Assembly (NCBI GenBank): GCA_001600455.1
Contig: BCKC01000006.1
Span: forward strand, 3,162,001 to 3,226,000
DNA: 64,000 nt
Direction of reading: 5' to 3'
From: Endocalyx cinctus
Taxonomy: Eukaryota; Ascomycota; Sordariomycetes; Amphisphaeriales; Apiosporaceae
Position numbers and translations under genes: made by a program. This document shows positions 2,462 to 40,467 of this stretch, piece after piece. Within the stretch, counting starts at the first letter, position 1. The number at the start of each line of letters is the position of its first letter. The notes beneath the pieces were generated by a model. That model did no database searches. It saw only the letters and a program-made list of their open reading frames with translations, and was not told the origin of the DNA.

Positions 2462-4817
2462 ATGCTTTGTGATATTTGCCAGGGCATCAAGTTTTGTCCT
2501 GCGGATGAGCTAGAGGAGAAACACGGCGGAAACGCAGCCGTGGAGTATCGTCGGAGATACGAATTGGAAAAGAGAGAGATGCTCTTCATTTGCTTAGTTG
2601 GACCGCCACCCCTCGTCTACTTCCACAAACCGATAATAGATGTGGCTCGGAGAGCTAGCCAAGGTTGTCACTTTTGCCATCTCATGCTCGAGACCCTTGC
2701 GAGATCTGGTAATTACGATAAATGTCTCAGCGAGTGGCATCAGATAGGACACGATGGACTAGTCCTTGAGGCAGGCCGCCAATCCTCTACGCCACTAAGA
2801 ATCATATACGAAGGCAAGGAATCGTGCGTATCTCTAGAGCTTCTGGAAGGTATGTAATGATTAGCGCGGGTTTCTCTTATCATCGGTGGACAGTGACTTA
2901 TGACTCATGTCAATAGACGAGTTTGCCAATATTTCTGATGTCTCCAATTTGAACTACGAGGATGATCTGTCTACAGGGTCGAACAACAGTCTCGACCTGG
3001 CGCGGTCGTGGTTAGAGATTTGTCGGAAGAATCATTCAGAATGTATGGCTGTAAAGGAAGGGAAGCACGATCTTCCAAATTACATTGTCGACGTCGGCTC
3101 ATCATCAGAGTTCAACCCTGCACCTCGCCTTGTGCAAGGAAATCGGTGCAGTGACGGATATGCAACCTTGAGTTACTGTTGGGGTAGTTCTCTACAGCCA
3201 GAAGTTACCACTACAAAGAATCTCAGCGAGCGCTTACTAAACATTGATCTTCAAGCTCTCCCAAGAACCCTTCGCGATGCTATCTACTCTGCTAGAATGC
3301 TTGATATGAGATTTATCTGGATAGACTCATTATGCATCATTCAGGATGATCCAAGTCATTGGAAGCAGGAATCTGTTAAGATGGCGAGTATTTACAGCCA
3401 CTCTGATATAACCATTGCTGCAGACTGCGGACCGTCGGTAGACTGTGGCTTGTTCAGCTCAAGGAACCCGTTAGCAGTCCGCCCGTGCCGTATGCCCCCG
3501 GAAGCCGTTCAGTCTGCATGCTTCCATGCCTTAGAGAATTCCAACATCTTCGTTTGTCACAAATACTCCTATCATTGGCCGCAGCAGTCTTCGGCACTTC
3601 ACTATGGCAAATCAGACTTATTGACCTGTTCGTGGCCGCCCGTTATAACATATCATGAGACTTCCTCATGGTTGGAACAACGAGCATGGGTTTTTCAAGA
3701 ACGTTTGCTCTCACGACGCATTCTTACCTTCAGTCCTGGAGGTATGCGTTGGGAATGTCTCAAAGGGGATGGGTGTGAGGAGAGACCGAGAGATATCTTG
3801 GATTATATGGAGCCTGTGTTAAGGAATATCCAAACGATCGCGGGCATGGAGCGCCAAGAGAGGTATGGTAAGTGGGCTGAGATTGTGGAGCAGTATAGCT
3901 GTCGGCTGTTGTCGTACAACACCGACAAACTCCCAGCTCTGTCAGCTCTTGCATCGACGTTCAACGAGCTGACGCAGTCTGTTGGGATACAAGACACCTA
4001 CCTCGCTGGAATTTGGAAGTCAGATATCTGTAGAGGCTTATTAGGGGAGGCAAAGAAAATTGATGGGAGGTCAAAATCTCCTGCTGTAAAAGAGTCTCGA
4101 TACATCGCACCCTCTTGGTCTTGGGCGTCTCGTGACGGTGTGAAAATCGAGATTATCCGAAAGTCTCCTCACGAGATTTGGTACGAGTGGGAAACAATCA
4201 ATTCGTTCTCTGTTATCGACACGAAATATCTCACTGATGGGCAAGACGCATACGGCAAGATTATTGAAGCCTCTTTAACAGTTCGTGGAGCTTTCGTAAA
4301 AGTCCTCGTATTTGACGTCGAGGCAGAAGCATTTAACACTGGACTTTCCAATCCGATAGATGATGATTGGAAGGGGGAATGGTTGGGTTTGATTGGATTT
4401 GATTCGGCCGAGTCCGCGGGAATGATCCTGCTAGACCTCCCAGGAATACCCAATGAACCAATTCTATGCCTTCCGCTGCTTAGTAGGTGGGACTATCATT
4501 TTGGCGCGGACCTTCTTAACTCCTCGATGAATGAATTGATACACATGAGCCATAACCTGGAACTTCGTATGAAGGCGTTTGGCATAATTCAGAACGAGGA
4601 GAAGAGGAAAACAAGCTTGCAGCCAGGGGTAGTGCCTTCATCTGGTTTGGAAAGTGTTGGCCAGTCTTATGGTAAAATTACAAGACTTATTTATCGTTGT
4701 CTGGCAGTAATACCGACAGAAGAAGGTACGTACAGGCGTGTTGGAATAGCGGACATATGGGATGTCTTCTGGTTCGACACCCAGAGTTCGAAGACTATGG
4801 TTTACGAACTTGTATAG
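2462..4817 (+). CDS. HET-domain (heterokaryon incompatibility) protein
   Basis: Two exons, 2462-2849 and 2917-4817, joined over a 67 nt GTATGT...ATAG intron with phase preserved; 762 residues. I chose the ATG at 2462 because MLCDICQGIKF is the usual opening of this class and no upstream ATG is in frame. A Cys-rich N-terminal segment precedes the HET domain, seen as YATLSYCWG, then IWIDSLCIIQDD, then MASIYSHSDITIAA, followed by a WVFQERLLSRR block and a SWSWAS motif near the C-terminal third. These are standard HET landmarks. HET proteins trigger cell death on non-self recognition in fungi; the partner here is unknown. Dispersed repeat A begins 72 bp after the stop. HET family is near certain; the biological role is inference. 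Confidence 0.92.
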
Positions 4818-4888
4818 AGACGTAATATGAAAGGAGTGGACTATATAAACCGTTATAACCAAACAGGTAATAACGGATTCGTTTAGAT

Positions 4889-5006
4889 GTGGGACTGAAT
4901 GGGACCTGGCATCGGAGACGTTAAATTAAGGGGTGGAATCAAGCTTACTGACCCGGTCTGAGAGATTGACTAATCTCGTAATTACGTATTGCCAGCTCAG
5001 GATATA
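4889..5006 (+). repeat. Dispersed repeat A, copy 1 (3' of a HET gene)
   Basis: This copy begins GTGGGACTGAATGGGACCTGG and ends GCCAGCTCAGG. It matches 23963-24075 (same strand) and the reverse complement of 11824-11942 along the whole length, with scattered substitutions. No coding capacity. It starts 72 bp after the stop of the HET gene and has the same orientation. Confidence 0.85.
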
Positions 5007-6430: not shown

Positions 6431-7771
6431 CGTATGAAGCAATGACTATACAATGATGAGTATGGTAGAACTAACATGAAATAACGAGGAAAGTGATTTA
6501 GGTAAAAAGAAAATCAGGTTAGGGAATCAGCTTTTTTTTAAAAAAATTCAATAAAAAAAGGAGAATGGTTTATTGAGGTGGGTAGGAAAGGAGAGAAAAT
6601 GAGTTATGAGGTTACAATGATTTATTTGGTTACTAATCATACCCTGACCCCTTAATAAATCGGAATAAGGATTTCCTAAATAATTAGATATATGATGGCG
6701 TTGGGGTCCGACTCTCTTTTACGTGTGTTTGTAGATATATAAGCGATACAATTCAAATTTATTGGTCAGATCAGTCTATCGCCTAATTAATATTTACGGC
6801 TAGAATATCCGACTGCTTCCCAATATCGCCCCCAACCTCCATCAGGGCATTCCGACCTGAAACATATTGGTTACACCATTTGGAGATGGCGGAGCGGATA
6901 TTCAACTGCGATCACATCTGCTTTACCCAGCTTCTTATCATAGCCTCATTGTAGATACGACGAGGCTCAAACCGTGCGATGACCGGCACCGCCCACCACA
7001 TAATATTTTTAATGAACATGTTCTTGACAGGAGCTAATAGTAGCATCCTAAGTAGCCATTTCACCTCAGCTGCGGCGAAAATAATGCAGGTACTTTAGTT
7101 ACTACCAGAGGCGCCCAGTTTGAAACCGCCCCCCCTCTTTACGTTCGCTCCTGACAGAGGGGGCGTAAAAATCTTTTTTTTTTTTCGAACAGCTTTGTTG
7201 TAACAAATTTACATAGAAATTACACTGAAATGAGATATTAAAACGGTTTTTTCCCCCTTTTTTTAAAAAAACAAAAATTAATTATTACTACTACCTAACT
7301 ATTATGATTACAGTATTGAGGGTATATTCGAGACTTCTGCCGCTAAACTAAATGATTTTTCAGGATAATACAACCTGAAAAAAGTTGAAGTGAGAGTTCT
7401 AGACCACCTTTTCTTGTTTCAGGTGAGACTCGAGTTATGTAGTTGTTTTCGCAAAAGTGTAAAAGTGCAAAATATGGTTTGGAGGATCATATTACGATTA
7501 ATTAATCACAATGAAAAGGGGTAAGGTAATCATGTATTAGATAGAAGAAATGGTGTGAATGAAATTGTATGGAGTCGAAGTATAAAAGCCAGCTTCAGCA
7601 GTTGATTCTTACAGATAGGAAAGAAAAGAAAATCATCAAGGGAATCACACTCATTAGTCTTCTCGACAAATTTCACCATCCAACTATTTACATTCATTTT
7701 CAACAACTCTCACTATTTTGACATATCTCAAACGTCCCACATTCGTTCCAAAGTTGTCAAACTATAGAATA
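6431..7771. other. Intergenic, AT-rich
   Basis: No supported gene. It contains homopolymer A/T runs and a small GC-rich inverted repeat near 7130-7166 (CCCCCTCT paired with AGAGGGGG). The right part is the promoter and 5' leader of the gene starting at 7772. Confidence 0.5.
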
Positions 7772-8959
7772 ATGTCTGCAGTCATCGAAGCAGTTGGGCT
7801 GGTTTCAGGTGTCCTTGGAATTCTACAGTTTGGGATAGATAATTTCCCCGAGAAGGAGACCGTTAGCTCCACGATCAGGATCACCGTCGGACTCGACGTG
7901 AAGGGTGGCCTAAATGACGCGGGCGGCCAGGTTCCTGATATTCGCCTTTTCAACGAGGCCGGCGAGTTTCTTGGTATCAATGTCGATGGTGGCGACGTTG
8001 AATCTGGTGGATTCACAGACATCAAGGTCGACCACAACCACGATTCTACGCAATCAGCCGCATACACTCTGTTCTCAGCCAACGATGATGCTGTCTGTAT
8101 TGCCCTAGCCTCCATCACTTGGCCCAGCGGTGACAAATACTCGTGGGTTGGTGATTGGGGCCACCAATGCGGTGGGTCCTGGTACTATTCCAACGTGAAT
8201 ATCCAAAGTTCCGACCATAAACCCGACTGCCTGTGGATCGACAAGAATAACGACCAGCCCCAGACAGGCTTTCAGATTCACTGGTCGGAATTCTCCCCCA
8301 CCGAGGGAGGAGGCGTACCTGATAGTAGCGATGAACAGGCCAAGAAAATCGACTATCTCTGTAACGCCGGTCCGCCATTCAAGATGCACACGTATCCCGA
8401 CACCGACCCTACAGGCATTACGTATTGGACTCTTGGAAAGGAGCGATCGGTTCATTTCAAGTCTACCACAGCGATGTCTTACGCCCCACGAAAGTCGGGG
8501 GCGTCGGCGCGGTTCCACGGCGGCTGGAAGTTTCCCCGGGGTAACGGCACGGAGGCCACTCGGCCCAACCCCCACACCAACCGGCTCGTTATGGCTAGCG
8601 GCCCTCAGCATACGGCGGGAGGTCTTTGCGAAAGCCCCACGTCCTTCGGACCGGACTTTCTCAACGTCGCGGATGGGTCCTTCTGCAGAATGACAGATAA
8701 GACAGTGGTACGTACTGAGCATCGACGACAAGTCCTCTTTTTTGCTAGCCTACCCCTGAGAAATGTCTTCCTTAAGTTACTCGAACAATTAAGACATCAA
8801 GTTGCTAACTTAATATTATTGCGGGAACTCTAGTGGCCAGTGTGCAACGGCGTCGATGTAGTGGACAGTTGCTTCAATACAAACTTAACGCAGCTAATCA
8901 TTAACGGCTTGGCAACCAGAGATACCCCGTACGATGATATTCTCAACTGGACTAGCTGA
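7772..8959 (+). CDS. Conserved Pezizomycotina protein of unknown function
   Basis: Two exons, 7772-8707 and 8834-8959, phase 0 across a 126 nt GTACGT...CTAG intron; 353 residues. The N-terminus MSAVIEAVGLVSGVLGIL is a hydrophobic helix followed by QFGIDNF, not a clear cleavable signal. The body is acidic and Trp-rich, with blocks such as PDIRLFNEAGEFLG, SWVGDWGHQCGGSWYYS, PDCLWIDKNNDQPQTGFQ and FCRMTDKTVWPVCNG across the splice site. I remember uncharacterised fungal proteins with the same block order, which supports the exon joining, but I know no assigned function. Even Cys placement (CGGSWYYS, PDCLW, LCNAG, VCNG, DSCF) hints at disulphides and export, but this is unproven. Confidence 0.8.
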
Positions 8960-9349
8960 ATGTGTGATATTTTATTATTTGGAACCATTCTCTTTCAAAT
9001 ATGTTATTAATGCTCTTAATAACTTTATGTACTTATTATTAATGTATTTTAAATTCCTTTCTTCGGCAATAATGCATCTGAGGTGCCATTGACCCTGCGT
9101 TCTTACCATAGGTAGTATACACCTACATACATGTACTTTTTAGAATCGATAAGTGACTCAATTCTGTCCCGCATCACTCTCGCAGTATTATAAAATTTTA
9201 ACCAGAATTGATCCATATAGGACGGTTTCCCTCGATCCATCCATCTTTATGTTACGTAGTTTAACAAATGTTCCTTCGAAATATCCGGCGCCTTTTGTTT
9301 TCTCCGTCGAACCACTATTAGTGATATTCCACGCCTTTCCGGTAGAATG

Positions 9350-11812: not shown

Positions 11813-11823
11813 TGTTTATAATG

Positions 11824-11942
11824 CTTCCTGAGCTAGTAATACGTAATTACGGGATTGGTCAATCTCTTAGACTGGGTTAACAAGCTTAATTCCACCCCTT
11901 AACTGAACGTCTCCGATACCAGGTCCCATTCAGTCCCATTTC
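11824..11942 (-). repeat. Dispersed repeat A, copy 2 (3' of a ustYa-like gene)
   Basis: Reverse-complement copy of the unit at 4889-5006 and 23963-24075. It begins, on the plus strand, with GCTTCCTGAGCTAG and ends with CAGGTCCCATTCAGTCCCAT. It lies 314 bp beyond the stop of the minus-strand UstYa-like gene and shares that gene's orientation. Confidence 0.85.
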
Positions 11943-12255
11943 ACCGTCACAACAATTTAATAGCAGATGATATGAAATTCTAGGAATGTGTCACAGTCAA
12001 ACATTATATAAATGTAATCGCTGTGGCTAACGACAGAACTGTAGCTACTAATTAGTCGCAAACGTGCACTGTAAGCTTATGAAAACAATAAGAAAATAGA
12101 CAACAGAGACTACGGAATAAATAGGGATTACTATAATTACTTTTAAATATTTTCATATAAAATACACGAAATATATCTAAGCATTGCTTTGATTAAAACT
12201 CATATCCTCAAAAGATGCTTGTGTTTCTATTCGTTCAGCAGCCCCAAAACCTCCT

Positions 12256-13305
12256 TTATCTATGCTCCTTATCTTGAATATCGACCCCCTCTGGTACTAT
12301 AGCCAATGCATCTTTGGCTACCTCTTTACCCCGTGTGCCCTTCCTCGATGTGGGAGTTCTGAGTTGAGACCACGTTACAAGCTCGTTAAACCGTCTACAG
12401 CTATGCACGGTTGCGAAATCGGGACCATATCTATGAGCCTGGGGATACCATTTCTGATTCACAGGCGTGGTATCGGCATGACACATCAAAACCTGCCTTA
12501 GATAGTCTATACAATGATCAAGATGTAATCTTTGTGTACGCTCTGATACATTTCGTGGGTAATGGTCCCTATAGAGTTCTCTCCGAAGCGAATCCTGCAA
12601 GGCGAGGGAAAACAGTTAATGATACTGGCAAATAGAGGACTCTAGACGTTTCGACGTACGAGACAATGGAGCTGGTGGAACACGTCAAGACCAGTGAACC
12701 AATACCCGTTCTGCAGCACGGTCTGATCACGAACTTTGTCTGCTTCATCACCCTCGAGCAAGACGCCCCAGACTGATTAGAATATTGTTAGTATAATGTC
12801 ACCAAGATCTATCGACAGGTTCTCAAGATAAAAATACCTTCTTCAAGACTATCCCAAGCTGCATCAATCTCCGAAGTAGGCTCTCCTACCCAAACCTTTT
12901 CTCCGGCAGCATGCTTGTTGACTAAGTTGCCGCTTTCATTCCAGGTTAGAGCACCTGTGAACTGGATCTGAACCCGGCCGGTATCGACTTTGCAAGGAGA
13001 TAGTTAGTTATATCTGATATAGGTCCCTAAATTCTGCACGAACTTTTAAAATTCTTACCAAGTTCAAGCGGTACGGCAGTGAAATCAGGAGCGCCCGGAG
13101 ACGAATCAATGAACGATTGCCGAAAAAGTAATACAACAGTCGTGAACGCAAAAATCAGAGTAGATAGCATCCATGGCCAAGATAATTGACCTAGATTTCT
13201 TTGTGGTAGAGATGAGATATAATACGAACCAAACTCAGTAGAAACCTCTTTTCTTAATAAGGTTGCCCGATTTGAACACTCATCTTCATGTTGTATGTTC
13301 GCCAT
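12256..13305 (-). CDS. UstYa-like (DUF3328) oxidase, RiPP-type
   Basis: Four exons: 13305-13059, 12987-12838, 12772-12660 and 12594-12256. All are joined by GT-AG introns in phase; 282 residues. There is one N-terminal transmembrane segment at about residues 43-61 (WPWMLSTLIFAFTTVVLLF). The two family motifs are present: HQLHC at residues 165-169 (in DVFHQLHCL) and HLDHC at 194-198 (in HLDHCIDYLRQ). They are followed by CRRFNELVTW. In ustiloxin, cyclochlorotine and related pathways, UstYa proteins catalyse oxidative cyclisation or chlorination of peptides, with the HxxHC pairs as the presumed metal site. The gene is divergent from a second UstYa-like gene and 3.2 kb from a candidate precursor peptide. 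Family assignment is firm; the substrate is inferred. Confidence 0.92.
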
Positions 13306-14019
13306 TTTCTATCAAGAGCTTAGAATTTGATAAAAGAGGTGATATTCTTGTTCGTCTATGGTTCCCGGAATTTTCTTTCACACTTCAAGGAGGGGAATCG
13401 TCGAGACCCTGAAAATTAGTGTCGTTCGTCAGTCGGAGGGATTATTATATCCTAGGAGCCAAATATTTGGGGGATGCATCTTGTATACAGTGTGAGAACA
13501 AGAAGAAATAATTATACGAGGGTCTCACTTCGGAAATACCGCAGATAACTAGAGAGATCGACGTTGCATCTGCATATATATTGTTCGTGTAACAATGCTT
13601 TCCTCTATCCAATCATTATTTTCAAGGTTTCTTGTGTCCCGCACGAATAGGTGGTGCTCCGAACACACTATTAAGACGGATATGAGTGTATAACCCTTCC
13701 AGACAGGCAGAAGTTTATGTCGGAGAGCGTATCAACTACTTAGGGGTGTATGCTACCGTGCACGAAAGAAATCTTGTTTTTCAGGCCGCGTCGATCCGTT
13801 TCCATCATTTCAAGCACGGGCCCGGTCAGCTTCACCACTTTGTTTCAATATCCTTCTCTTTACGTTCATTCGGGATAACCCCCGTCTTCAAAATCCTTTT
13901 TTCTTTTTTCCATCATTATTCGCTTCCGACATAACTCTATCCTACACATTCCAAATTGCGTCTTCCTACAAGAGTATATATTTATTTTCTCCTTAATTTA
14001 CAACAACCACTGGGTTATT
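13306..14019. promoter_or_regulatory. Shared divergent promoter of the two ustYa-like genes
   Basis: The 714 bp between two divergently oriented UstYa-like start codons must contain both promoters, which would allow co-regulation. It is pyrimidine-rich just before 14020, typical of fungal core promoters. I recognise no specific operator. Confidence 0.6.
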
Positions 14020-15023
14020 ATGGATCATGTAATATACTCCCCGATTAATAAAGAGATACACGATTTGGAATCGTCAGAACAAGACGAGGGCAGCTTTTCT
14101 GAAGATGAAAGTCATTCTGTTCCAGGCCACATCCCCCATAGTTATGCGGCTAAAGCGCTCCAACTTACCAAGGATAATTGGCTGGGTATATTCGCGGTAA
14201 TCTGGCTAGCATCGTTGCTGCTGACTTGGAAAATCGCATCCATACTTTTCAAGCCTCAGTTCGATTTTTCCTCCGGCTTAGAGACTGAGCTAGGTAAGAA
14301 TAAATCTCGATCACGGCGATAGTTTTGTGCTATATAGAAACTAACCCCAATCAGTGCCTCTAAAATCACAACTTGAAATACAAATGGTCACGTACACCGG
14401 CGATCTAGACTGGGACGAAAATGGAACACTGTTCAGAACAACGACGCCGGGAGAGACTCAATACGTGGGTTATCCAAATCCAGGAATAGATGCAGCCTGG
14501 GACCATCTAATCTTTGGTAAGAAACCTATCCGTAGCCTTTTCATCAGATAAATGCTGACAGAATGAACAAGGTGACGGCGTGGACCTACGAGGAGACGAA
14601 GCAACATCAGTAGAAGGCACCACGTTCCAGAAAAAAGATGGCTGGTGGGTTTTGGGCATCGATGTCTTCCACCACCTTCACTGTCTCGTAAGTTTACGCT
14701 CAAATGGAAATTCTTCATTTCATGGGACACTGACGTAAGTAATGTATCAGAACATGATCCGCAAAACGCTATACCTGGATTACTATGGAATGAACGAAAA
14801 GTCAGCAGATAGTTATTATGCCCACGTCAACCATTGTGTCGATTCGATCCGCCAGGCACTTATGTGTTCGTCGGACATAACGGCGTACCCCGTGGAGTGG
14901 AATAGTAAATACCATCGACCAAGACCTAACTTCATCACGAAGGTTCACACGTGTCGAAATTTCGAGAAACTGCGAGACTGGGCTGCTGACCGTGCTACTG
15001 AGCTACATCCAGATTGGGTATAG
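14020..15023 (+). CDS. UstYa-like (DUF3328) oxidase, second copy
   Basis: Four exons: 14020-14293, 14355-14516, 14572-14687 and 14751-15023, in phase; 274 residues. Intron 2 appears to end in AAG; the nearby CAG would bring a stop into frame. An acidic cytosolic N-terminus precedes one transmembrane segment at about residues 54-77 (starting WLGIFAVIWLASLLLTW). The family motifs are HHLHC at 179-183 (in DVFHHLHCL) and HVNHC at 209-213 (in HVNHCVDSIRQ), followed by CRNFEKLRDWA. The intron positions correspond to those of the neighbouring copy, so the two are related, yet the sequences are well diverged, suggesting different reactions on one substrate. Membrane-anchored oxidase of a ribosomal-peptide pathway is the likely role. 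Confidence 0.92.
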
Positions 15024-16537
15024 CTATTGATAGTCTTTTTTTTCCCCAGAAGAAAAGCGGATGAAGCAAGGAGTTATGATATTTCCAGAGGAAATCTTCA
15101 GTTATTACAGTACGAAGAGTCTCTAACGCAGCCCCAAGATAGATTTCTTACGTATTTTACGATGAGTAGAGTCTAAAGATTTCGCAAATTAGAGACACCA
15201 AATGGAATTGTGATCGGGAATGTTATGGAGAGAAAATTAAAGTAGTATTCTTCTTTAGTCACATATCTAACATGATAAAGGCCCAAACAGGGCTATTAAC
15301 GTTTAATATTGCCGTCAGCCCTGGAAAAAGTCTATCTACGTTTCATTTTCACTTCGTTTCACAAATTAAGGTGTAATGATGAATAAGATAAGCTATGTGG
15401 TTAGAATATGATTTTTCGCCAAGCATATAGCGAGAGCCCACTGCCTAAAATCATAGTCAAGAACTGCAAAGTAATTACAGATTGACATACGCCATTGTTC
15501 TATAAACGCGGGAGATGACCGATTGTGCAACGTGAAATGTCAACGCCCTGGAAGGGTATTGGGTGTAAATAGACTACCCACCCAGCCACCACCCCACGGG
15601 GCTGAGAACAGGGGTAAGTAATGGTACTAGGTCGACACGCATAAGCGTCCGCGCCGGGCTTCACAATTATCCTCAAGTGATATTATTGGGTCACGGGTCG
15701 GATCAACATCAGAGATCAGCACCGGATTTAGGAACATCGTTAAAAACCCCGAATAACTACCCCGAGTATTTCCCCGCACAAATGGGTCGTTTTTAGCAAG
15801 GCTTTCTTTTACCGGTTATGCCCGTTATATGTCGCAATAGTAACATCATGTGCTTCAATTCTGCCTTTGTAACACCTCGCTTTATAGCTCGCGTATGTAC
15901 GAGACATGAAATGCTATTGGAATGAATGTGCAATAGACATAAGATCAACCCACAGATCATAAAACACATAGCTTGACTATTCTATATCATTCTCGGATCG
16001 GCGTAATTAGAATGCAACTCCTCACCGAGTCAACGCATCGCAGATCAACAATAAAGTAGATACCCGTGTAAAACAGAAATAGGAAATTAGGGCTTTGAAC
16101 TCGAGATTCCAAATAATTTAGTGTCTACCTATCGACAATTGAATTCAAAAACGTCACTTAGTGCTGCACGAGGAAGATCCTTATGCGTATGTTATGCAAA
16201 ATGTGAGTAGGTTATCACAAATTCCCCTCGTACAAAAGGACCATGCACTCATAGCGGGAGAGGGGAGCGACGATTCTAAGCCACGGGCTTTGTATTTACT
16301 CGAATACTTCACCCGGCGGGTGTAGTCTTCTAGTATACCTCGCACTGGGATAGACTGTAGACCCAGGGGTTCGAAGCATGTAGGATGAAATCTATAGAGG
16401 TTGACTTGTAGCAAAGAAAAGTATAAGTACGGCGGAAAAGTCACACTCTGTGGTAAACTTCTAAACATCGTCAAATTTTACCGGAAACATAACTTAACCC
16501 CCTAAGCTTACTTAAAGTTGAAGAAATATCCGTTACA
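15024..16537. other. Intergenic between ustYa-like gene and peptide precursor
   Basis: 1.5 kb without a supported gene. A 97-codon minus-strand frame at 16181-16474 has no motif or splice support. The last few hundred bases hold the promoter of the precursor gene. Confidence 0.5.
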
Positions 16538-16867
16538 ATGAAGCCGTCGCTATTCCTTAACCTCATCGGTTCCATGTTGGTGCTTGCAGTCCCGACCCCG
16601 AAAGATAGTAAGTGACTTTGATTCTATCCATACAATCGCACCCTTTAGTTTTGAACTAGTTTTTGAGTATGCATAAGATTAACAAGAAATATAGTGAGCC
16701 TAGATGGCAGTCTCTCTTCTAGGTCACTTCAGTCAAAGAACAACGCTGAAATCGATGCTCGAGTCCTTCAAGCAAACTATAGTGCCGACGAGTACGACAC
16801 TCCTGATGTTGCTCCGCGAGTACTCCAGGCAAATTATAGCGCGGATGACTACGAAGATGAGGAGTGA
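16538..16867 (+). CDS. Candidate RiPP (dikaritin-type) precursor peptide with two core repeats
   Basis: Two exons, 16538-16607 and 16695-16867, with an 87 nt GTAAGT...TATAG intron splitting an ATG codon; 80 residues. Residues 1-18 form a signal peptide (MKPSLFLNLIGSMLVLAV). The second exon encodes two near-identical repeats: RVLQANYSADEYD starting at residue 46 and RVLQANYSADDYE starting at residue 65, linked by TPDVAP. The repeats differ at several third codon positions while the peptide is kept, which signals selection on the protein. Signal peptide plus repeated Tyr-containing units beside UstYa genes is the architecture of ustA-type precursors, which are cut in the secretory path and cyclised. 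The usual Lys-Arg spacer is absent; a single Arg precedes each unit. No translation in the other frames shows the repeat. The alternative is an unrelated small secreted protein. Confidence 0.72.
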
Positions 16868-20344: not shown

Positions 20345-21153
20345 TACTAGATTTTCTTGTACAGACTGAACTCTTGAGCGGATAAGAACTATTCGACTTT
20401 TGAAATGATGAGCCTTGTAACTATTTTTTAAGACAAAGGCTCAAGTCTAGTTGTAATGCTCAATCAATTACACATGAAGGACTATCACGATGAACAAATT
20501 GAGATTTCCAACGAAAGAGTGGATTACCACTTGGTTAGTTAAAGAGAAGTTGGAAGAGTTATTTTTCAAATTCTTAGGCAGCAACACAAACCTCTATTGG
20601 GTATCAAAATAGTCATCTCGATCTTAACGCCCGAGTCTGTCTTTGCGGGGTGGCCGCCTGCCTTACTTATATACACAGTTGGGTTTCACCATTTTCTTAT
20701 CTATAAAAGGCAAATCTGCATTTTTAATCACTTTCTATACTTTCAAAATCAAAATCTGCTATCATGTACTATAAGGAGAAGTGATCAGTGATGGCGGTAA
20801 ACCTCCAGAGTCTAGACCGTTGGGGTCATCCAATAGATTGACAGGCTGCTAGGTAGAATTGAACTAGGCATGGAAGGCAAATCAGGCAGGCAAGTAAGAA
20901 CTAGGCAGACATGACAAAAGAAATGATCCGTCTGCGTGGTCGTACAACCCCGCATGAATGGTAGATATTGGAGGTATTACAGCGGAGAAAAACTGTTCGA
21001 TTACTCGTCCCTTTTATGGGACAATTTTGAATTTGTGACGCTTAGATTTACTGTTCATCATTACTATACCTAATGTTTTAAGTAGATTCTCGAATGGTGC
21101 CTCCATCGCGGGCAAAGTCACACCAAAGGTCCTAAACTTGATTTCCGTTCCAG
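20345..21153. other. Divergent intergenic region, AAA ATPase / HET gene
   Basis: 809 bp separate the two divergent start codons. It holds both promoters. There is no gene or repeat that I can support. Confidence 0.5.
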
Positions 21154-23910
21154 ATGTCATCGACATTCTCACTTTCTTTCCTTGACGATATCGAAAATCA
21201 CAATAGTGAAAAAGACGTAGAGAATCTGTGGGCGGGAAGGACATTTCCACTTGTACGAACAAAGGATTTTGATCAGAATTGGGTTGCGGTCGAGAATACT
21301 GACGGCATTTTTGTCGATGGGTCTGGTTCTCGTTGCCGTGTTGTGCCGCAAGAGCATTTCCGATCCCACTGCCAGATCCATTTTCGTTCAGGTGACAAAA
21401 CTGATGATTTCGAGACTCTCTATGAGGCAATTGTTTTTGCTAAGCTGCTATATCATCACTTTAAGAGCAAGAGAGATCGTTTGCGGCAACCACCAGAAGT
21501 CCAGCGCCGGGGTTTTGTCGATGATTATGTGAACAAACTCCCTTTACAATGGAGGGAAATGATTGTCGTCAATAATTTACACTTTTATGAACCAAATCAT
21601 GGTACTATATTAGATCATCCAGGTCTTAATGTATATAAGGCATTGGACAAGCCTTCTAACATTCGCTTAATCACTATTGAACCGGCATCTCAGAGTTACT
21701 ATCCAATCAGCTGCACACTGAAAGAAGAAAGTTTCGCGGCATGTTCAGACTATGAAGCTCTATCATACGTATGGGGGTCACCTTCTCCAAAGCGCGATAT
21801 CATCCTCAATGGGAAAACTGTCAAGGTTGGCGAGAACTTGGAAGCGGCTTTGCGACATCTACGGAAGCAGGATGGCACAACACGCACAATGTGGATCGAC
21901 GCCGTTTGTATTAACCAGATGGATCAAAATGAAAAGGGGACTCAAGTTGCCCAGATGGATAAGATTTATAAAAATGCGATTGGGGTTGTGATATGGCTTG
22001 GCCAAGAAACCAACACGAGTTCTCGAATATTTGATGATTTGCACCGAATGCATCTCCTCGAAGAAATCATCAAGCCGCCACAGGAATTTAAAGCGTTCCA
22101 CAGTCGATTCCCTTTCCAGCTCGATACGTACTGCCAGGATTGCAGCATCGACAAACGAGGAAGTAACAAAGAAATCGTGTTACCAGAAGTATTAGAATTA
22201 CTAGAAGCAACACACCGTGAGCGTGGTCACGATCATAAACAGCGATCAAACGAATTTATAGAATATCTCGCTCGTCTGAAAACCTTTCAAAAAGAAACAG
22301 GCTCCCAACATGCTTATTGCCCGGAAGAGTCATGGGATTCACATGTTGGTGAACGCCAGGATGAACTTGAAGCCTGGATAAAATTACTGCAGAGACCATG
22401 GTGGAAAAGGGTATGGGTATTGCAGGAAGCTTCCCTAGCGAAGAAGCTTGTCATTCAGTGTGGGAATCGATCAGCGGCATGGGACTCGTTCCAAGGTATG
22501 CTGTACACTCAGGTCCGGAGAAGTCGACGCTCGCAACTACGATTCCAGGAAACTATTACTCGTGGAACTTACTTGAACGATAAACTGATGTCCGTGATTG
22601 ACACTACTTGCATATACTTTCTGCCTAGGCAGCTTGACGTACCTTATGCAAGAGATAGTAGTTACCGGATGGCTCACTTGCTGGCTCTGTCCGCTGGCTT
22701 TGAAGCCACAAATCCTCGAGATAAGATTTATGCTTTAACTGGCCTATTGCCAGAGGAAGGGGATGAAAGGAAGAAATTTCTACCCAACTATAATTTGCCG
22801 GTTGAACGTTTAAATCTTGAAGTGACCAGATTCTTTCTTGAGACAAGTAGGCGAATAGACGTTCTGTCGGCACGACCGAATCAACCATCCTACTGGAAGG
22901 CCTTGACTAAGAAGCAGAGATTCAAAACGGGTCCATCCTGGGTCCAGGACTGGGATTTGGTACCATATCAGAGCCCGCAATCCTATGTTTCTATCAGTCT
23001 CGGGAGCTTCTCTAAATACGACGCTCTAAATGAGTTCATGCCTTTACATACCCCATCTGGTTCTTTTATGCGGCAATCTACCGGCGATACTTTTTATAGT
23101 GCCAGTCTAATTGCGAAGTCACCGTGGCCTATTAAATTTTCATCCTACGGTGAGATACTTGAGCTATATGGGTTGATAGTAGACACTGTCACGGTTATGA
23201 CCGTTCCGTTTGATCCAGTGATGTCCTTTCATCTCTATAACCCATCGATTCCTGGGCACTTGGATGGTGGGCTCCAGGGGGTTGACGCAGTCGAGATCGG
23301 TATTTTGAAATACTGGCAAGAAGCAGCTGGAGCGCAAGAGGGGCTATTCTATCAATCCACGGGGCAAACCAGGCTCGAGGCTTTCTGGCGTACCGTATTT
23401 TTGGATCGATTTCTAGATGGGTCTCATATCTGCCGAATTCCGGCGACGCTAGACCATCCGCCAGAATCTAATTTTAGAAAACTCTTAGGCCAGAAGGAAT
23501 TCCCACCTCGGGATCAAGATGGCTTGAAAGCAGTACACAACCTTCTTATGCGTCAAATAGCAGATGGCAAAAGCTTTTACGGTGTCAGCCCCCAGTCGAT
23601 AGGAACAAGCCTTTTTATTACTGCGAAAGGCTACATTGGCATTGGCCACACAAACACACGACCAGGAGATAAGGTGACGATCATCATGGGAGGTAGCGTA
23701 CCAATGGTACTTCGAGAGCACCCGGAAGGTTATTCGGTAGTCGGAGAAAGGTAAGTACTAATTAATCCATGTCTGAAAATACCAATTCTGTAGACTAACG
23801 CCTTTTGTAGTTATGTACACGGGATTATGGATGGTGAGGTTATTGAATTTGAAAAAAGTCAGGGTCGAGGACAGAAAAAAACAGATTTCCAGCTCTTTAG
23901 TATCATATGA
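21154..23910 (+). CDS. HET-domain protein (HET-6/OR-like)
   Basis: Two exons, 21154-23750 and 23811-23910, across a 60 nt GTAAGT...TGTAG intron; 898 residues. The HET domain begins near residue 200 with YEALSYVWGSP and continues with TMWIDAVCINQMDQNEKGTQ, MDKIYKNAIGVVIWLG and, after a long insert, WWKRVWVLQEASLAKK. NPRDKIYALTGLL and the tail with MGGSVPMVLREH and YVHGIMDGEV are typical of the HET-6-like subgroup. The last two are joined only if the final intron is removed, which supports it. About 170 N-terminal residues before the HET domain are not recognised. Likely role is non-self recognition and cell death. Repeat A starts 53 bp after the stop, as at the other HET gene. Confidence 0.93.
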
Positions 23911-23962
23911 ATTATGTAGTATACCCGGAACACGAGTTCAGCATATAAGCTGTAGCGGAGAA

Positions 23963-24075
23963 GTGGGACTGAATGGAACCTGGTATCGGAAACGTTAGAT
24001 TAAGGAGTGGAGTCAAGCTTACTGACCCGGTCTAGAGATTGACCAACCCCGTAACATATTTCCAGCTCAGGAAAT
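23963..24075 (+). repeat. Dispersed repeat A, copy 3 (3' of a HET gene)
   Basis: Same-strand copy of the unit at 4889-5006, starting GTGGGACTGAATGGAACCTGG and ending CCAGCTCAGGAAAT. It begins 53 bp after the HET stop codon, in the gene's orientation. No coding capacity. Confidence 0.85.
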
Positions 24076-24612
24076 ATTATAAGGTGCTGAGATCCCGTTC
24101 GATTCATAGAAATAGATACTTCCTTAAGCCCTAATTCAATGAGATATTTACATATACATTCTATATAATTGCCAAGCTCCCAATCCAATTCATAAGCTCT
24201 AACACTCTGATAGTAACCTTACAGATTTAAAGGACGACTGAGACAGAACAGGTCGGTTTTAAATATACGTTTTACATCGCTGATAGTTAGGCAACAGGTA
24301 AGCGATATATGCGCGATTATTCAAATAATGGTAATTACTGCCCCTCCTTTGATAATGGAGACCAATCCAATTGCCCCTGATGTTCTATTGTCAGCATAAT
24401 TATCACCGTGAGATCAGATACCGTTCCAAGCTATTGGTGCCCGCTCTATCTCGTGATATGGTAGATATCTCTTTTTACCGCCTCGTAATATGAATAGATT
24501 TTGTCTTTAATCATGATGTCCACTCTCTATATTTTTCCTTATATGCTACTACAGCTGTGATCTCTCATTTAAACCAACCGACATACTCATCACTATAAGT
24601 TCTATATTTACT
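24076..24612. other. Intergenic, P450 promoter region
   Basis: 537 bp of AT-rich sequence upstream of the P450 start codon. No gene, repeat or recognisable operator. Confidence 0.45.
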
Positions 24613-26450
24613 ATGTTATCCTCAATATTTGTGGCGGGGCTCTTAGCAGTTCTAGTGTATATTGTATACGGCAGCTTCACTCACGGCCATCGGAGGAGGG
24701 AAATGCCTATTGGTGAGCCCCCTATAGTTTTTTTCCGTACTGTGCTTGACTAATATGACAGGACCCAAAACGGTTCCATTTATCGGCAATCTTCATGTAT
24801 TTCCAAAGAAACACGCCTACCTGAGGTAAGTTGCCTTAAGTCCTTCTCTAGTAGGATATTCTCAACAATAACGTGTCAGACTTACAGAATGGGCCCGCCA
24901 ATATGGAGGTTTGTATACGCTGAAGTTGGGGACCGGTACCATGGCTGTGATCACCGACAGAGATATCGCGAGAAGAACTTTGGATAAGAAAAGTAATATA
25001 TACAGTCACCGGCCCGTTTCTTATGTAAACGACATCATTGGAAATGGTAATCATGTCCTTATGATGCGCTACGGCGACAAGTGGAGATCTTTCCGAAGGC
25101 TCATTCATCAACACTTTATCGAGAGCATGATGGAGAAGCATATACCCGTAGCTAACGCTGAAGCGATTCAACTTGTTCGGGACTATATGTTCGCCCCAGA
25201 AGATCACATGCTTCACGCAAAAAGGTTTACCAACAGTATTATAAACTCGATCAGTTAGTTATTCCTACTTTGCTCATTCTCTCATCCTCCCTTACCTCCA
25301 TAGAGGTTCGACCAATTCCACTGACTAGAGTTCACGAAGTATTTGGGATTCGTACTCCACACCCTAGGACCAACTATATGAATCGCCTGTACACCTTGAT
25401 GGAGTCATTCACGGAGCTCATGGAAACTGGTAACACTCCACCTGTGGACATTTTTCCCTGGCTCAAAGCAATTCCACAACAGTTTCTTGGAAACTACAAG
25501 GCGCGCGCTCTTGCGACAGGGAAACAAATGAACGATCTATACGAGGACATCCTGCAAGACGTCCTTAAGCGACGAGAAACGCGCAATATTGGATCTTTTA
25601 TGGACGTGGTCCTCGATCAGCAAGACAAACTCAAGTTCACGCGCGAAGAACTGCGGTTTGTTGGCGGCGTACTAATAGAGGCTGGTTCGGATACAAGTTC
25701 ATCACTCATATTGACCATCATCCAGGCACTCATCTTGAATCCGGAAGTACAAGTAAAGGCACACCGTGAAATCACTAAGGTAGCGGGTGAGGATAGATCT
25801 CCTAACTGGGCAGATATGGAAAAGCTTCCGTACATTAATATGATTGTTAAGGAGGCCCATCGATGGCGATCAATTGGACCACTGGGTATTCCTCATGCCC
25901 TGGGTGAAGGTAAGTTCAAATTTACAAATTTATTTCGATGCTAACGCTAAAGACTAAGATACTAATTTGTACAGACGATTGGGTTGACGGGAAGTTCCTC
26001 CCCAAGGGCACCATTGTCATACTCAACACTTGGGGCATCCATATGGACCCACAAGCATGGCAAGACCCGGAGAAGTATATCCCGGAACGTTTTCGGGACT
26101 ATCCACTTTTGGCCTCCGAGTACGTTGCGCGAGAGGATCGCGACCATTACGGCTACGGAGCTGGAAGACGTATATGTCCCGGGATTCCTCTCGCAGAGCG
26201 AAAGTTGTTACTTGCTACGGCCAAACTAATCTGGGCATTCGAGTTCAAGCCGCAAATCGGACCAGATGGCGAGCCGATACCGATTGACTCCGATCCAATT
26301 ACCGGATATGATCACGGGGTTCTTCTTGCTCCTAAAGACTACGGGTGCACACCCATGTTACGGTCCGAAAGAGTCCGAGAAACCGTGATGCGAGAGTTTG
26401 AAGATGCCGAGAGAAATGTATTTAGTCAGTTTGAAATAAGCGACGGATGA
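24613..26450 (+). CDS. Cytochrome P450 monooxygenase
   Basis: Five exons: 24613-24712, 24762-24825, 24880-25253, about 25340-25909 and 25975-26450; about 527 residues, near the family norm. The start of exon 4 is uncertain. Position 25340 (AAG acceptor) gives the expected NSI-IFGIRTP join, while 25304 (TAG) would insert 12 residues and is also in phase. An N-terminal membrane anchor (ILVYIVYG-like helix, residues 1-20) is followed by GPKTVPFIGNLHVFP. The I-helix is IEAGSDTSSS, the K-helix EAHRWRS (ExxR), and the heme-binding loop HYGYGAGRRICPG with Cys at about residue 437. It resembles O-methylsterigmatocystin-oxidoreductase-like P450s of fungal secondary metabolism. Substrate unknown. It is 7.7 kb from the peptide precursor, so cluster membership is possible but unproven. 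Confidence 0.93.
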
Positions 26451-26670
26451 CGTGATCTAGATATCAGAGAAACACACAAGTGGATAATATGCTCATGTGG
26501 CTGTCGGGTATGGTTTGTTTTATGAAAAATCATTTGCTTTAAGAGATACAACACTAGTAAAGTACGAATACGAATATGAGAACGAGAATAAAACTTTTCT
26601 AATTTCCGCGCGCGACCTCGTTGCCTTACTTAACAGACTGACAAGGAGTCATTTTTCCACGCTTATGTTA

Positions 26671-28014
26671 TTATCTCCCAGACTCAGCTCCGAGTGGAAT
26701 CGATTTCCAAAGTGCTTTCACACCAAACCACCAGAGTTCATCCTGCCACGTGTTCCAATAATGGCTCCCGAACGGCGTGATTCTCGACAAGAACGATACA
26801 CCGGAATCTCTTAACGCGCTCTGTAACTCCCGTGCACCGTCAAACACGACATCGTATAGTCCGTATGCCACGAAAACTCCCTTCTCTTTCAGGGCCGGGT
26901 TCTCCGCCGTCAAGTTCGCATCAATCAGACGACCGCCGGTGGCAGGGGAGAACAGTCCGTACCAATCGAAGTAATCGGTGGCGTTCATATACATCTCGTA
27001 TGTCAGCACACCACCCATGGATAGTCCGGCAAATGCGCGACAAGATGGCACGTCGCAGACGTCGAAGTTCTCTTCTACGTAGGGGAACAAGTAGTTTTGA
27101 TAGTTTTCGCGAACGGTGGGTGCGGCAGGTACCGGCGCGAAGACCGACATGTTGCCGTAGATGAACTTGGGTAGGCTCGAGTCGATGTTGTAGAAGGACG
27201 GCATTACCACCACGGTCGGCTCGATGTGGCCCTCGAGGATCAAGTTATCCATTATACTCGACATGCGACCGAGGTTCTCCCAGTCATTGCCATTGCCCCC
27301 GGCGCCGTGCGAGAGATAGAGAAGAGGGTATTTTTTGTTCCCTTTCTTGGACTCGTCGTACCCAGGTGGCAAGTACACGGTGAAATCATGCACGTCGGGT
27401 TCGGGGTGGATGGAGCCCGGCGAAGTGTAGTTGACCGACTTGACGGTGCCCCTATGTCCGTGCGGCGCAGACAAGGCGTAGTCGAAATTGGTGTCAATAT
27501 CGGACGTCTGAAAGCGCGCATCGAAAGGTACTTGGAAACTAGATGCGACTTGGTCTCCCCGTGTGTTCATAAACGGTGGCATATCTGGGTCGATGACGAG
27601 GTTTCCCGTGTCTATGCTGCACCTCAAGGCGAACTCGCAATCGATCAAATACGCATAGCTGTATATTCCCGATGGTAGGGGAGTGGTATACGTCCACACG
27701 CCATCCTCGTGCTCACTGACCATTTCATATGGCCACTTGTAGTCAGGTGTTATTGTAGCACTACTGACATAAAAGTCTCCAGGTCTGTAATCATGTGGAT
27801 CATAAGGCGTTGCGTAGAATTGCCCGGCGTGGAGCTGATCAGTGAGGGGGAATAGACCACCTCCGATCAGTACACTGCTGGCTGTTTTGTTCGTATATTT
27901 GAAGTCTACTTCGTAGCCCGTCGGCCCATTGTTAGTTTTGCATACTACAACAGAGGCTGAACCTACTAAGGCGAAGGCTAGAAGCCGAGTGAGGTGTAGG
28001 GATGATCGCGTCAT
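26671..28014 (-). CDS. Secreted alpha/beta-hydrolase esterase (esterase D / feruloyl-esterase-like)
   Basis: Intronless, 447 residues, ATG at 28014, tail-to-tail with the P450 (220 bp apart). Residues 1-25 form a signal peptide (RLLAFALVGSASVVVCK). The N-terminal part resembles a carbohydrate-associated beta-sandwich (GVWTYTTPLPSGIYSYAYLIDC), as found ahead of bacterial XynZ-type esterases. The catalytic domain has VYLPPGYDESKKG, YLSHGAGGNGNDWENLGR, the nucleophile elbow AGLSMGGVLTYEMY, and a late His in FGSHYWNTW. The acid is probably the Asp in GLYDVVFDG. A likely role is removing acyl or feruloyl esters from plant polysaccharide outside the cell. N-glycosylation sites are frequent. Substrate not determined. 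Confidence 0.88.
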   Translation of the reverse strand: MTRSSLHLTRLLAFALVGSASVVVCKTNNGPTGYEVDFKYTNKTASSVLIGGGLFPLTDQLHAGQFYATPYDPHDYRPGDFYVSSATITPDYKWPYEMVSEHEDGVWTYTTPLPSGIYSYAYLIDCEFALRCSIDTGNLVIDPDMPPFMNTRGDQVASSFQVPFDARFQTSDIDTNFDYALSAPHGHRGTVKSVNYTSPGSIHPEPDVHDFTVYLPPGYDESKKGNKKYPLLYLSHGAGGNGNDWENLGRMSSIMDNLILEGHIEPTVVVMPSFYNIDSSLPKFIYGNMSVFAPVPAAPTVRENYQNYLFPYVEENFDVCDVPSCRAFAGLSMGGVLTYEMYMNATDYFDWYGLFSPATGGRLIDANLTAENPALKEKGVFVAYGLYDVVFDGARELQSALRDSGVSFLSRITPFGSHYWNTWQDELWWFGVKALWKSIPLGAESGR

Positions 28015-29864
28015 GGTGGGGACTGTGATTTGACCGTTTGTATGAAGTGTGCCGGATCTTCAAAAGCTCTGGTTACAGACCCACGTATTCTTGAGAATTT
28101 TAAGGATATATATATCTAGTCAAAGAGCTCGGATACCATCCCACCGGACCCGTCAAGGTCCAGGAGAGTATCATGTCATTCCTCAATTTTCTCTGATCCA
28201 GCATTTGTTCAAATTTCAACCATGTCTCCTATGAGAAGGTCTAAGACGTAGTAAGGTCAGGATGCAGAAAGTCGAGAATTTTCGGCGACCTGTCGGTCCT
28301 ATTCTACGAGCTGTATGCCAAATCCAGGTCCGAACTGATTTTAGGAATTCTTGGCTAAGAACATAAGAGACGGATGTAGTACTCAGTCCACCGGCTAAAC
28401 ATCGTCATGGGGTATATGTCCCAGTCTATATTCCCCTATGTAGGTCTGTCCATTAGTGGAGCTTGCCTTTTGTCTAGTTGTATGTGGATTGCATTCTCCA
28501 CATCCCCCATCTTCTCCAACACCTTGGCAAAAGTACATCTACCGACAGATTGGCTTACACGAGCTTTCCCCAATCATCCCCCCCGCCTATAATGCAGATT
28601 GGGATTCCTTCTTAATACATGTGATCATTACAGGATTATGGATTTAAAATCCCCATCGTAACGAGCGGTCACAACCTCGGTCGTAGAATACATAGCGGTA
28701 ATGAGATTAAAAATACCCGGCTTGTAGTTTCTAATCATATTGAGGGAGATGAAAAGGAATGCATAACTAATGAAGCGTTCTACGTTTGTGGTTGTACTGA
28801 AGACTTGTACTTTTTTTCCTGTTTGGCTCAAGAGCTGACACTGTATTATTCATTTATAGATACGAGTGGGCTTCGTAGACTTGTAGACACAACTGTACTT
28901 GAAAAGTTTATATTCGGCATTGTATTGGTCAGATCTAGCTCTAGTAGCACACACGAGAATACCTTGGTGGGATAAACCATAGGACATGAACTAAGAAGAA
29001 CCTTTGTTTATATTTGCAAGACGTTTTTTGGCCGCCCGTCTATCAGCAGATGTGGCGCGACGTGCTCGTCTTTGAGAAGGGACCCTATAAATTGCTCGTA
29101 GTTATCTTCGCCGCCAATTGTGCTTAAAGTAATGTTTTGATGGGAAAAGCGTTGCAAAAGTGGGTACGCCTAGTTAAGTACTTATCTACTCTTATACCAA
29201 AGCCTACTATTATCACTAAGCAAGAACTTAATAGGGTAGAATTTTAGAATCATAGAGTTTTTTTCTATTCAATATTATATAGAACAAATCCTTCTCATTT
29301 TCAGTCTTGTTTTACTTTTCCGGCTAGTTGTTAGTCAAGTTCTTGCCCATTAAGAATAGAAGGTTTTGGTATGAGTAAGAGTGGTAAATATATAATGTGA
29401 GATGTTCTGTGTCTAACTGTATTATGACAATTAAGTATTAAGACAATAAACGAACTTAACTTAGTATTCACTGATATCGACAAATATCAAGCGTAAATCT
29501 TTTTGAATGAATGTTAAGAAAGCATGTTAAGCTCGTAGCTAATTAAATTATAATCAAAATAGTAGGGAATTAGCTATTACGAAGCCTCTTAAAGGTAACC
29601 TTCAGTCCAAAATAAAGGGAATACGAATATATTACCGGACCAGCTACCAGCATATTGGAATTACCACTGTTATGCAAAATACGAGAGAAGATAATTATCC
29701 CCGAAAAATACCACATCTGGCCATTTACTATATCGGGAAGCTGGCTCCTAGCCGGTTACCGTACCAGTATCAATCCAATGGAATCCTTATGTCATATTCG
29801 TGAATGGGTGAAGGGGAAGGAATAATAATATCAAAACTCTACCCAAGAAAATTAGAAGTTCAGG
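28015..29864. other. Intergenic, no gene recognised
   Basis: 1.85 kb with only short overlapping frames around 28400-28830, none with motifs or splice continuity. I see no shared repeat. It may contain gene debris too decayed to name. Confidence 0.5.
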
Positions 29865-30600
29865 TTAAGCCACCATCTCCACAGCGATAGTCAACCGCTT
29901 CCGCTGTTCGATGTTTAGACCCTCACCCGGCACGCCCACAAAAGCGTCCGCATACCCCTGCATATCGAGCATGTCTAGGAAATTCTCGACATACGCCAGT
30001 TTCTCTTCTGCTGTTGTCGATCCTGACTGTCTAAGTAAGGCACTAAATTGCAACGCCTCGCGCACGGTTTGAGTAACCAGGTGTATATCTTCTTGCTGGA
30101 CATGCCCGACCTTTCTCTGGAAGCTTGTGTCCCGCGTGCGTCCGTCGACGAAGATACCTACACTCCACGTACCGATCGAAACGCGATCGGCTAAGATATT
30201 CAGTAGCATAGTTTTGCCTGCTCCAGTAACGCCCTAGAAGGTGGATATTTTACTCAGCTGATCTATCCAGGTTTCTACCCACTGGTTCGTTTTCTTCAGG
30301 TTTCCGAGCGACTTACCATCAGGGCTGTCAACGTTCCCGGCTGCACTCAACCATCCACGTTACGGAGGATCTGGCAAGTTCCTCGTCGTGTCCTAACTTC
30401 GTAGTTAATCCCCGCCCAGTGAAAACAGCCAACTTGATGTGCGTTCTGAGATATAGCTTGCGGAATCTCTGTGTCTTGTAACAAGGTACTTGCTGCTCTA
30501 CTATGAAACTGGGTCTGACTCGTATCCTTGAAATTTGGGAGGGAAAGAAACTTAGCACCAGTTACGAGGTTGCCAGAAGCATGTTTCGATCGCGATGTGA
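29865..30600 (-). pseudogene. PDR-type (ABC-G) transporter relic
   Basis: On the minus strand, one frame from about 30590 reads into FHWAGINYEVRTRRG, CQILRNVDG, a TGA, then VQPGTLTALM before a GTAAGT donor. This is the lead-in to the second nucleotide-binding domain of a PDR transporter, where the TGA replaces a Trp expected from the family. After the intron come Walker [45 protein letters not shown] and a signature-like [17 protein letters not shown]. The frame then stops at 29865 and no transmembrane domain follows. The first half of the transporter is also absent. Only a fragment of a multidrug/efflux-type transporter remains, and it cannot be functional. Confidence 0.85.
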
Positions 30601-30640
30601 CACCACGAAATCTGAGGACTTCCCCTTTTGAAGGTCGTGC

Positions 30641-31484
30641 TTAGATGTACTCGAACGCAAGGAGATGAATGATGAAGAAACCAAGCATCATACTGGTAAG
30701 TATACCGAAATTTCTAGTCAATAAATCTGTGGTCCGTCGCAGATTCGCTTGCGTCTCCTGGTGTAGATCCGTTAGAGCAAAAATACCTGCTATTGTTAGG
30801 AACTATACGTAACTATGGAAAGTAAACTTGAACTCATATCCGGACACAATAGCAAATAACCCTGCTATGATCGGATTCCACTTCCTCGTAGGTAATTGGG
30901 GTTGCCATAACGCTTCCACCGGATCGGTCTGTACCAACGTCAAGATGATGGATAGCAGTCCCAGTACCGCAACGAGTACCGTGTTCACGGTCAATCACCG
31001 CTTGAACCAGGTCTTGTTGCCAAATAGGCCGACCAGGAGCAGACAGATAGAGATACGTGCAGTGATGGAGCACAGTACGCCGGGAACGGTCGAGATATAC
31101 ACCCATTTGAGCATTTCGGTCCACCCCATGGCTGGATCCTTCATCAAATACTCGTTGTGGACACCTAGTCCCCAATAGTATGCCTCAGTGATGCATACCT
31201 GACTGCGGATCTGAAGTGCCTGGACGGATGACAATCTTTAGTGATCTATGGCCATACCATATTGGCAATGGGTTCAAGAGTGAAAAAATATATATATCGA
31301 TAACACATACCGTAGCAACGATCATAAAATAATCATGAAGACTTAAGCCCTGAAAATTTTCGAGTCGTACGTATATCCGTAGCAGTATTACAATGATACA
31401 AAGCGCCGTCGATACCCAGGTGATTTGTAAGACGAGAAGTCCTTGGTCACCAGGGTCGTTGAAGTTCGGCCGGCCCATGATCAT
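30641..31484 (-). pseudogene. SAT4/fungal-rhodopsin-type integral membrane protein, with internal stop
   Basis: Exon 1 is 31484-31311 (MIMGRPNFNDPGDQG, then a TM helix and RIYVRLENFQGLSLHDYFM). Exon 2 starts at 31219 (ALQIRSQVCITEAYYWGLGVH) and continues through several TM helices (KWVYISTVPGVL, ISICLLLVGLF). At 30995-30997 a TGA interrupts the frame after TWFKR. The same frame then goes on with LTVNTVLVAVLGLLSIILTL and DPVEALWQPQ, the expected next helix and loop. A further downstream segment (IFALTDLHQETQANLRRTTD, ending FEYI) could be a last exon, but I could not find a clean in-phase junction. The layout matches SAT4-type seven-helix proteins common in fungal metabolite clusters. Probably a recent pseudogene. 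Confidence 0.7.
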
Positions 31485-40465: not shown

Positions 40466-40467
40466 CG

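Follow-up and report, generated by a model that had tools for sequence, protein, structure and literature searches.

A 64-kb stretch of the genome of the fungus Endocalyx cinctus (C6:3162001-3226000 in an assembly of 44.76 Mb and 15 contigs), referred to below as the window, carries at positions 12256-16867 a module consisting of two divergent UstYa-family oxidase genes, named here A and B, and a small split peptide gene. This is probably a minimal ustiloxin-type (dikaritin-like) module for a ribosomally synthesised and post-translationally modified peptide (RiPP), in which the oxidase pair would act on a tyrosine-bearing core, and it deviates from standard dikaritin modules as a variant of them. 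The reading is strengthened by a paralogous unit on contig C2, which has the three genes in equal order and a homologous precursor, and it is further supported because this unit is the only other close A/B pair found in the genome and because relatives of A and B lie on what appears to be a common contig in other fungi. The initial annotation had already proposed a RiPP locus; the paralogous unit and the contig sharing speak for that proposal, but the peptide is no textbook dikaritin precursor, as it has no dibasic site and just two repeats.

For all gene models, the splice sites were picked by hand and then verified through translation. Oxidase A is encoded on the minus strand (12256-13305; exons 13305-13059, 12987-12838, 12772-12660 and 12594-12256) and comprises 282 residues, and oxidase B on the plus strand (14020-15023; exons 14020-14293, 14355-14516, 14572-14687 and 14751-15023) comprises 274. 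Both score 145 bits with PF11807 in the Pfam scan (cut-off 25) and contain two HxxHC motifs, HQLHC and HLDHC at residues 165 and 194 of A, and HHLHC and HVNHC at residues 179 and 209 of B, which bears out the earlier description of two divergent UstYa-type genes with paired motifs. A hydrophobic segment starts at residue 43 in A and 57 in B, with best 19-residue means of 1.78 and 1.98, respectively (only the best segment and the weakest above 1.6 were reported). The HxxHC residues are among the columns conserved to at least 90% in 60 homologues. In the structural model of the B homologue from Xylariaceae sp. FL1651 (predicted local distance difference test, pLDDT, 78; predicted template modelling score, pTM, 0.62), a long N-terminal helix spans residues 39-74, with low confidence before residue 36, and the two motifs are placed on helices 172-186 and 199-220, where they may form a metal site. 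No solved relative of the UstYa proteins was found in the PDB by sequence or by fold: none of the 121 matches from the fold comparison reached an E value of 0.001, and the single match of the sequence search (E 0.98) was taken as chance.

The peptide gene lies on the plus strand and is predicted to have two exons. Exon 1 (16538-16607, 70 bases) starts with the ATG at 16538 and encodes the signal-like segment MKPSLFLNLIGSMLVLAVPTPKD; it is followed by a predicted intron of 87 bases (16608-16694, phase 1, GTAAGT...AG) and by exon 2 (16695-16867, 173 bases), which encodes single arginines and two core repeats. The spliced precursor has 80 residues, starting with MKPSLFLNLIGSMLVLAVPTPKD and continuing as ...LDGSLSSR-SLQSKNNAEIDAR-VLQANYSADEYDTPDVAPR-VLQANYSADDYEDEE, where hyphens follow internal arginines. 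It contains two copies of RVLQANYSAD[ED]Y[DE] with two tyrosines each, namely R-VLQANYSADEYD at 16760-16798 and R-VLQANYSADDYE at 16817-16855, which starts 57 bases after the first. A secreted-type peptide of this length with two RVLQANYSAD[ED]Y copies, 1.5 kb further on, had been annotated before, with coordinates that proved right to the base. Without splicing, the frame meets a stop after 25 codons, so that the signal segment and the repeats are joined only upon intron removal. An alignment of 13 codons from the two copies shows nine base differences, all in third positions (P = 3.4e-6 by chance); seven of the codon changes are synonymous and two are Asp/Glu exchanges, and in the codon that follows, positions 1 and 2 are changed. 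The restriction to third positions points to purifying selection on the protein sequence of the repeat. The window has two occurrences of the pattern R..Q..Y[SG]A.[DE]Y, and 40 resamples of the same length (64 kb, first-order Markov) have none; the looser Y[SG]A.[DE]Y, likewise present twice in the window, was found five times in the 40 resamples altogether. Ahead of both repeats, at 16721-16732, the spliced peptide has one more RxLQ (R33-SLQ), which lacks the tyrosine part and may be the remnant of a decayed repeat head.

The second unit is located at 4.42 Mb of C2, where 9 kb were read, and has the layout of the window unit, A(-) B(+) precursor(+). Its oxidases A2 (minus strand, 266 residues) and B2 (plus strand, 273 residues) are each 57% identical to their counterparts, and its two-exon precursor of 98 residues follows on the plus strand 1102 bases after B2. 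The two precursors have most of the start in common (MK.S...LIGS, LVLA.PT), including, as judged from the alignment, the hydrophobic N-terminus; directly after it comes a phase-1 intron at the same place, then L.G....R, two copies of R..Q..Y[SG]A..Y[DE], and EE at the end. The cores of the C2 repeats are TYSAEDYD and TYGAADYD, giving R-xx-Q-xx-Y-[SG]-A-x-[DE]-Y-[DE] as the frame common to both peptides. The alignment score of their mature parts was equalled in one of 5000 shuffles, and 18 of the 23 differences between the two 31-codon copies within the C2 peptide are at third positions. It is very improbable that the predicted peptide gene is dead or no more than a chance frame; no relative was found in the protein database, but the third-position pattern of the repeat copies and a homologous C2 copy with the intron in the same place and phase stand against this explanation. 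The initial annotation had named orthologous UstYa loci that lack a repeat peptide as a finding that would speak against it; the C2 paralogue, the only other A/B locus read, has such a peptide.

Whole-genome searches gave 33 matches with A and 38 with B, none of them more than 46% identical outside the four unit genes, and no third close A/B pair. The C2 precursor was found in a scan for repeats around UstYa genes (34 sequences, 175,759 bases, mostly with 1.5 kb on either side of the gene), which covered the window, L031-L033 and 30 further loci, by eye 24 of about 31 UstYa places, with seven outside. In genome searches with the precursors as queries, each retrieved itself but missed the other, and the window precursor gave an additional chance match at E 5.3. 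In the scan, with the other frames of the window as background, the window precursor scored 63 and the next best 43. The strict pattern R..Q..Y[SG]A.[DE]Y was present only at the two units (191 kb examined, locus overlaps included); thus, in the DNA examined, all three components, the close A-type and B-type genes and this kind of peptide, are confined to the two units, where they stand together. By judgement, five of the 24 places have repeat peptides. Besides the two units, these are L016 (C6, about 30.1 kb; SEIDVADAF, with KR-..IDVADAF), L001 (C7, about 1752.9 kb; EPTYIRMYLGG, with GGKREAAPEEASELEPTYIRMYLGGK) and L019 (C8, about 1618.8 kb; DNDEIWLW, with ..WLWKK..), all of them ordinary-looking dibasic precursors, which indicates that the missing dibasic sites are particular to the two units and not to the species. 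The string DVAPR is common to L019 and the window peptide and only hints that xAPR may be a cut site. Many other scan lines above the cut-off were rejected as GC-rich, low-complexity or other-frame stretches, most of them from L013.

A comparison of the two loci by blastn (E 0.001) gave alignments only in the coding sequences of A and B and in dispersed repeats, so the duplication is old. One such repeat of about 140 bases or more lies close to both units (window 11815-11949, 4885-5002 and 23956-24208; L034 6601-6871) and might have indicated that a block was copied, but it is present at least 40 times genome-wide (40 candidates out of 130 scored) and is therefore uninformative on the duplication. 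The phylogenetic tree agrees with an old duplication. It contained 37 rows, namely 33 of 166 database homologues, hand-chosen from the better matches, and the four genes of this genome; A and B form separate clades, and the C2 copy of A is placed among genes of FL1651 and Nemania and separated from the window A (support 100/97). The order within B is not resolved (81/43).

Relatives of A were found at an E value of 0.001 or better in 132 of 725 candidates, of which the best 120 were examined, and relatives of B in 50 of 197. Among the matches listed, the best relatives of A are from Xylariaceae and 55-62% identical, and B is 62% identical to a protein of Xylariaceae sp. FL1651. Members of both clades are, again among the matches listed, on contigs of equal length in all six strains that have both (Xylariaceae FL1651, Astrocystis sublimbata, Xylariaceae FL0594, Xylariaceae AK1471, Seiridium cardinale and [Torrubiella] hemipterigena), which suggests that A and B share a contig in each of them. 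In two strains the gene or protein numbers of A and B are even consecutive (VHEMI01211/01212 and F4808DRAFT_458938/458939).

The surroundings of the modules bear on the possibility that A and B act in another pathway, as in cyclochlorotine-type clusters, with the peptide gene as a bystander. Two of the 50 listed relatives of B (P0004 and P0010) are named "Cyclochlorotine biosynthesis protein" by their source, and on the two sides of the C2 unit there are a P450 gene (L034 2-1056, minus strand) and a gene for an AMP-binding/PP-binding/NAD_binding_4 reductase (7505-8998, minus strand). Among the translations scanned, no counterpart of these was recognised directly beside the window unit, from which the nearest P450 gene is 8 kb away, and apart from A and B the two units were seen to have only the peptide gene in common, so we regard this possibility as quite improbable. 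The Pfam scan comprised 26 different translations (23 from the window, three from C2), a subset of the open reading frames, and none of these was recognised as a further tailoring gene in or immediately next to the three-gene module of the window. The P450 genes at 25-38 kb and a sedolisin-type gene at 49-51 kb of the window were dropped as cluster members, as they are 8-32 kb off, with AAA and HET genes in between. The 17 kb at 25162-42187, with two P450 genes, genes for an esterase and a short-chain dehydrogenase, and a 272-residue frame without a Pfam match, are possibly a separate metabolite cluster. HET-domain genes are present at 2904-4814 and 21142-23751, the second past AAA and DUF7025 frames that adjoin the module. 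The GC content falls to 25.5% in an island at 46001-48000; the other 2-kb steps have 39%-51%.

Three of the features by which dikaritin or ust-RiPS pathways are defined are found in the module: both oxidases are UstYa (DUF3328) proteins with two HxxHC motifs, the precursor is near the UstYa genes (1514 bases past the stop of B, 1102 in the C2 unit), and both precursors have a repeated tyrosine core with two copies of two tyrosines each. It resembles the ustiloxin (UstA, UstYa, UstYb) and phomopsin (PhomA) systems in the signal-like start, the repeat precursor near UstYa/DUF3328 genes and the two HxxHC motifs, and likewise in the acidic residues before tyrosine, which are [DE][DE]Y in three of the four repeats and ADY in the fourth. 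The common core of ustiloxin and phomopsin is given as EDYXI (PMC6339444). In contrast to this, there is no isoleucine two places past the tyrosine here, no tyrosinase was found among the scanned translations, and there are two repeats without KR sites instead of the 16 or eight repeats described for those precursors (PMC6514808). The absence of dibasic sites and the mere two repeats also distinguish the peptide from the epichloecyclin precursors, to judge from the same source (PMC6514808). Asperipin-2a (AprA, AprY) is similar in its small gene set and its core with several tyrosines, which is FYYTGY in that case (PMC6514808), but it has one DUF3328 protein together with a reductase and a transporter, as opposed to two UstYa proteins here, and another core. 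KEX2-processed repeat proteins (KEPs) with DUF3328 neighbours are comparable in being secreted-type and repeated with an adjoining UstYa gene; the present precursors fall outside the KEP definition, which asks for three or more repeats between KR, KK, RK or RR (PMC7329392), as neither has dibasic sites between its repeats or a third full copy.

Several of these and other observations weigh against a RiPP module. Neither precursor contains KR, KK, RK or RR, only single arginines, and each has only two full repeat copies. In a set of 5.8 billion proteins, 11 candidates shared words with the window precursor, none of them at E 10 or better, and no precursor relative from another species was found in this set. 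Small split genes often go unannotated. The 26 scanned translations include no tyrosinase, methyltransferase, transporter or S41 peptidase, functions of the kind named in the older five-gene definition of dikaritin clusters, a definition later relaxed according to PMC12048977, and the neighbours of the two units differ. The co-occurrence of A and B also has exceptions: a second, longer relative of A lies on a different contig in strain AK1471, for Nemania FL0916 a B relative is accompanied by just a weak match in the A list, again on a different contig, and some species are in one list only among the matches listed, such as Xylaria grammica for A and Talaromyces rugulosus for B. Finally, UstYa-type proteins are reported to work in non-ribosomal and polyketide pathways as well (PMC12048977).

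According to the mechanism proposed here, the precursor would very probably be translated and enter the secretory pathway, and it is in good likelihood the substrate of A and B. A protease would plausibly cleave after the single arginines (LSSR, IDAR and VAPR), releasing pieces that begin with VLQANYSADEY and VLQANYSADDY, for which Kex2 cutting at single arginine is a possible route, with yapsins as other candidates. The K1 killer toxin is cleaved by Kex2 at Pro-Arg. Evidence for sites with other P2 residues is mentioned in a yeast study, in which a reference title describes the yapsins as monobasic-specific aspartyl proteases (PMC2515848). By analogy with UstYa and UstYb, A and B would act together on N-Y-S-A-D-[ED]-Y, where tyrosine would, on a slight balance of probability, be oxidatively cross-linked to a nearby residue, and trimming would then yield a small acidic macrocycle. 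The first cyclic ustiloxin intermediate needs UstYa, UstYb and the tyrosinase homologue UstQ, and AprY is essential for asperipin-2a (PMC6514808); tyrosine is present in 65.6% of the repeats of DUF3328-linked precursors as opposed to 38.2% in others (PMC7329392). The calculated linear [M+H]+ values are 1967.887 for VLQANYSADEYDTPDVAP, 1760.713 for VLQANYSADDYEDEE, 976.353 for both NYSADEYD and NYSADDYE, and 747.283 for YSADEY, and the oxidative loss of two or four hydrogens would shift them by minus 2.016 or 4.031. The initial annotation had presented the cross-linked product with caution, which is still appropriate. The peptide could instead be secreted and cut without ever being cross-linked, as a linear signal, pheromone-like peptide or effector, to which the UstYa proteins would contribute little or nothing. 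Repeat peptides without such chemistry are common, as 78% of the KEPs have no DUF3328 neighbour (PMC7329392), and among the scanned translations no other tailoring gene was recognised beside the three genes; since the oxidase pair and the peptide co-occur twice and the tyrosine frame is among the best-kept parts of both peptides, we consider this explanation unlikely.

UstYa-linked repeat precursors are common in fungi, accounting for 1758 of 7878 KEPs in one survey (PMC7329392). The KEP surveys require KEX2 sites between the repeats (PMC6339444; PMC7329392), and the latter additionally at least three repeats and annotated proteins. Both units fall outside these rules, from which we infer that they would not have been counted there. 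When Hypoxylaceae and Xylaria hypoxylon were surveyed, similarity to known precursors revealed ustiloxin-like clusters in some of the species, and the true diversity was called not assessable (PMC8403587). The core words, and UstYa together with Xylaria, gave no match in the open-licence literature, which is weak evidence of novelty. New here is the second three-gene unit in the genome, and the predicted precursor type, with single arginines and two repeats, departs from those described. Tentatively, with chances a little below even, we suggest a hidden branch of UstYa RiPPs, in which A and B are inherited together with precursors cut at single arginines and containing R-xx-Q-xx-Y-[SG]-A-x-[DE]-Y, which would exist in all fungi with the A/B pair (Xylariaceae, Seiridium, [Torrubiella] hemipterigena and, probably, their kin), and which the site and repeat rules of the KEP surveys have missed. 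If this is true, the current search rules for fungal RiPPs, with dibasic sites, at least three repeats and annotated proteins, omit part of the class, and UstYa pairs of the A/B type would be a handle for finding the omitted members. Since the frame was kept in two parallel units while its surroundings diverged, it would then also be possible to ask which residues are recognised by the UstYa pair.

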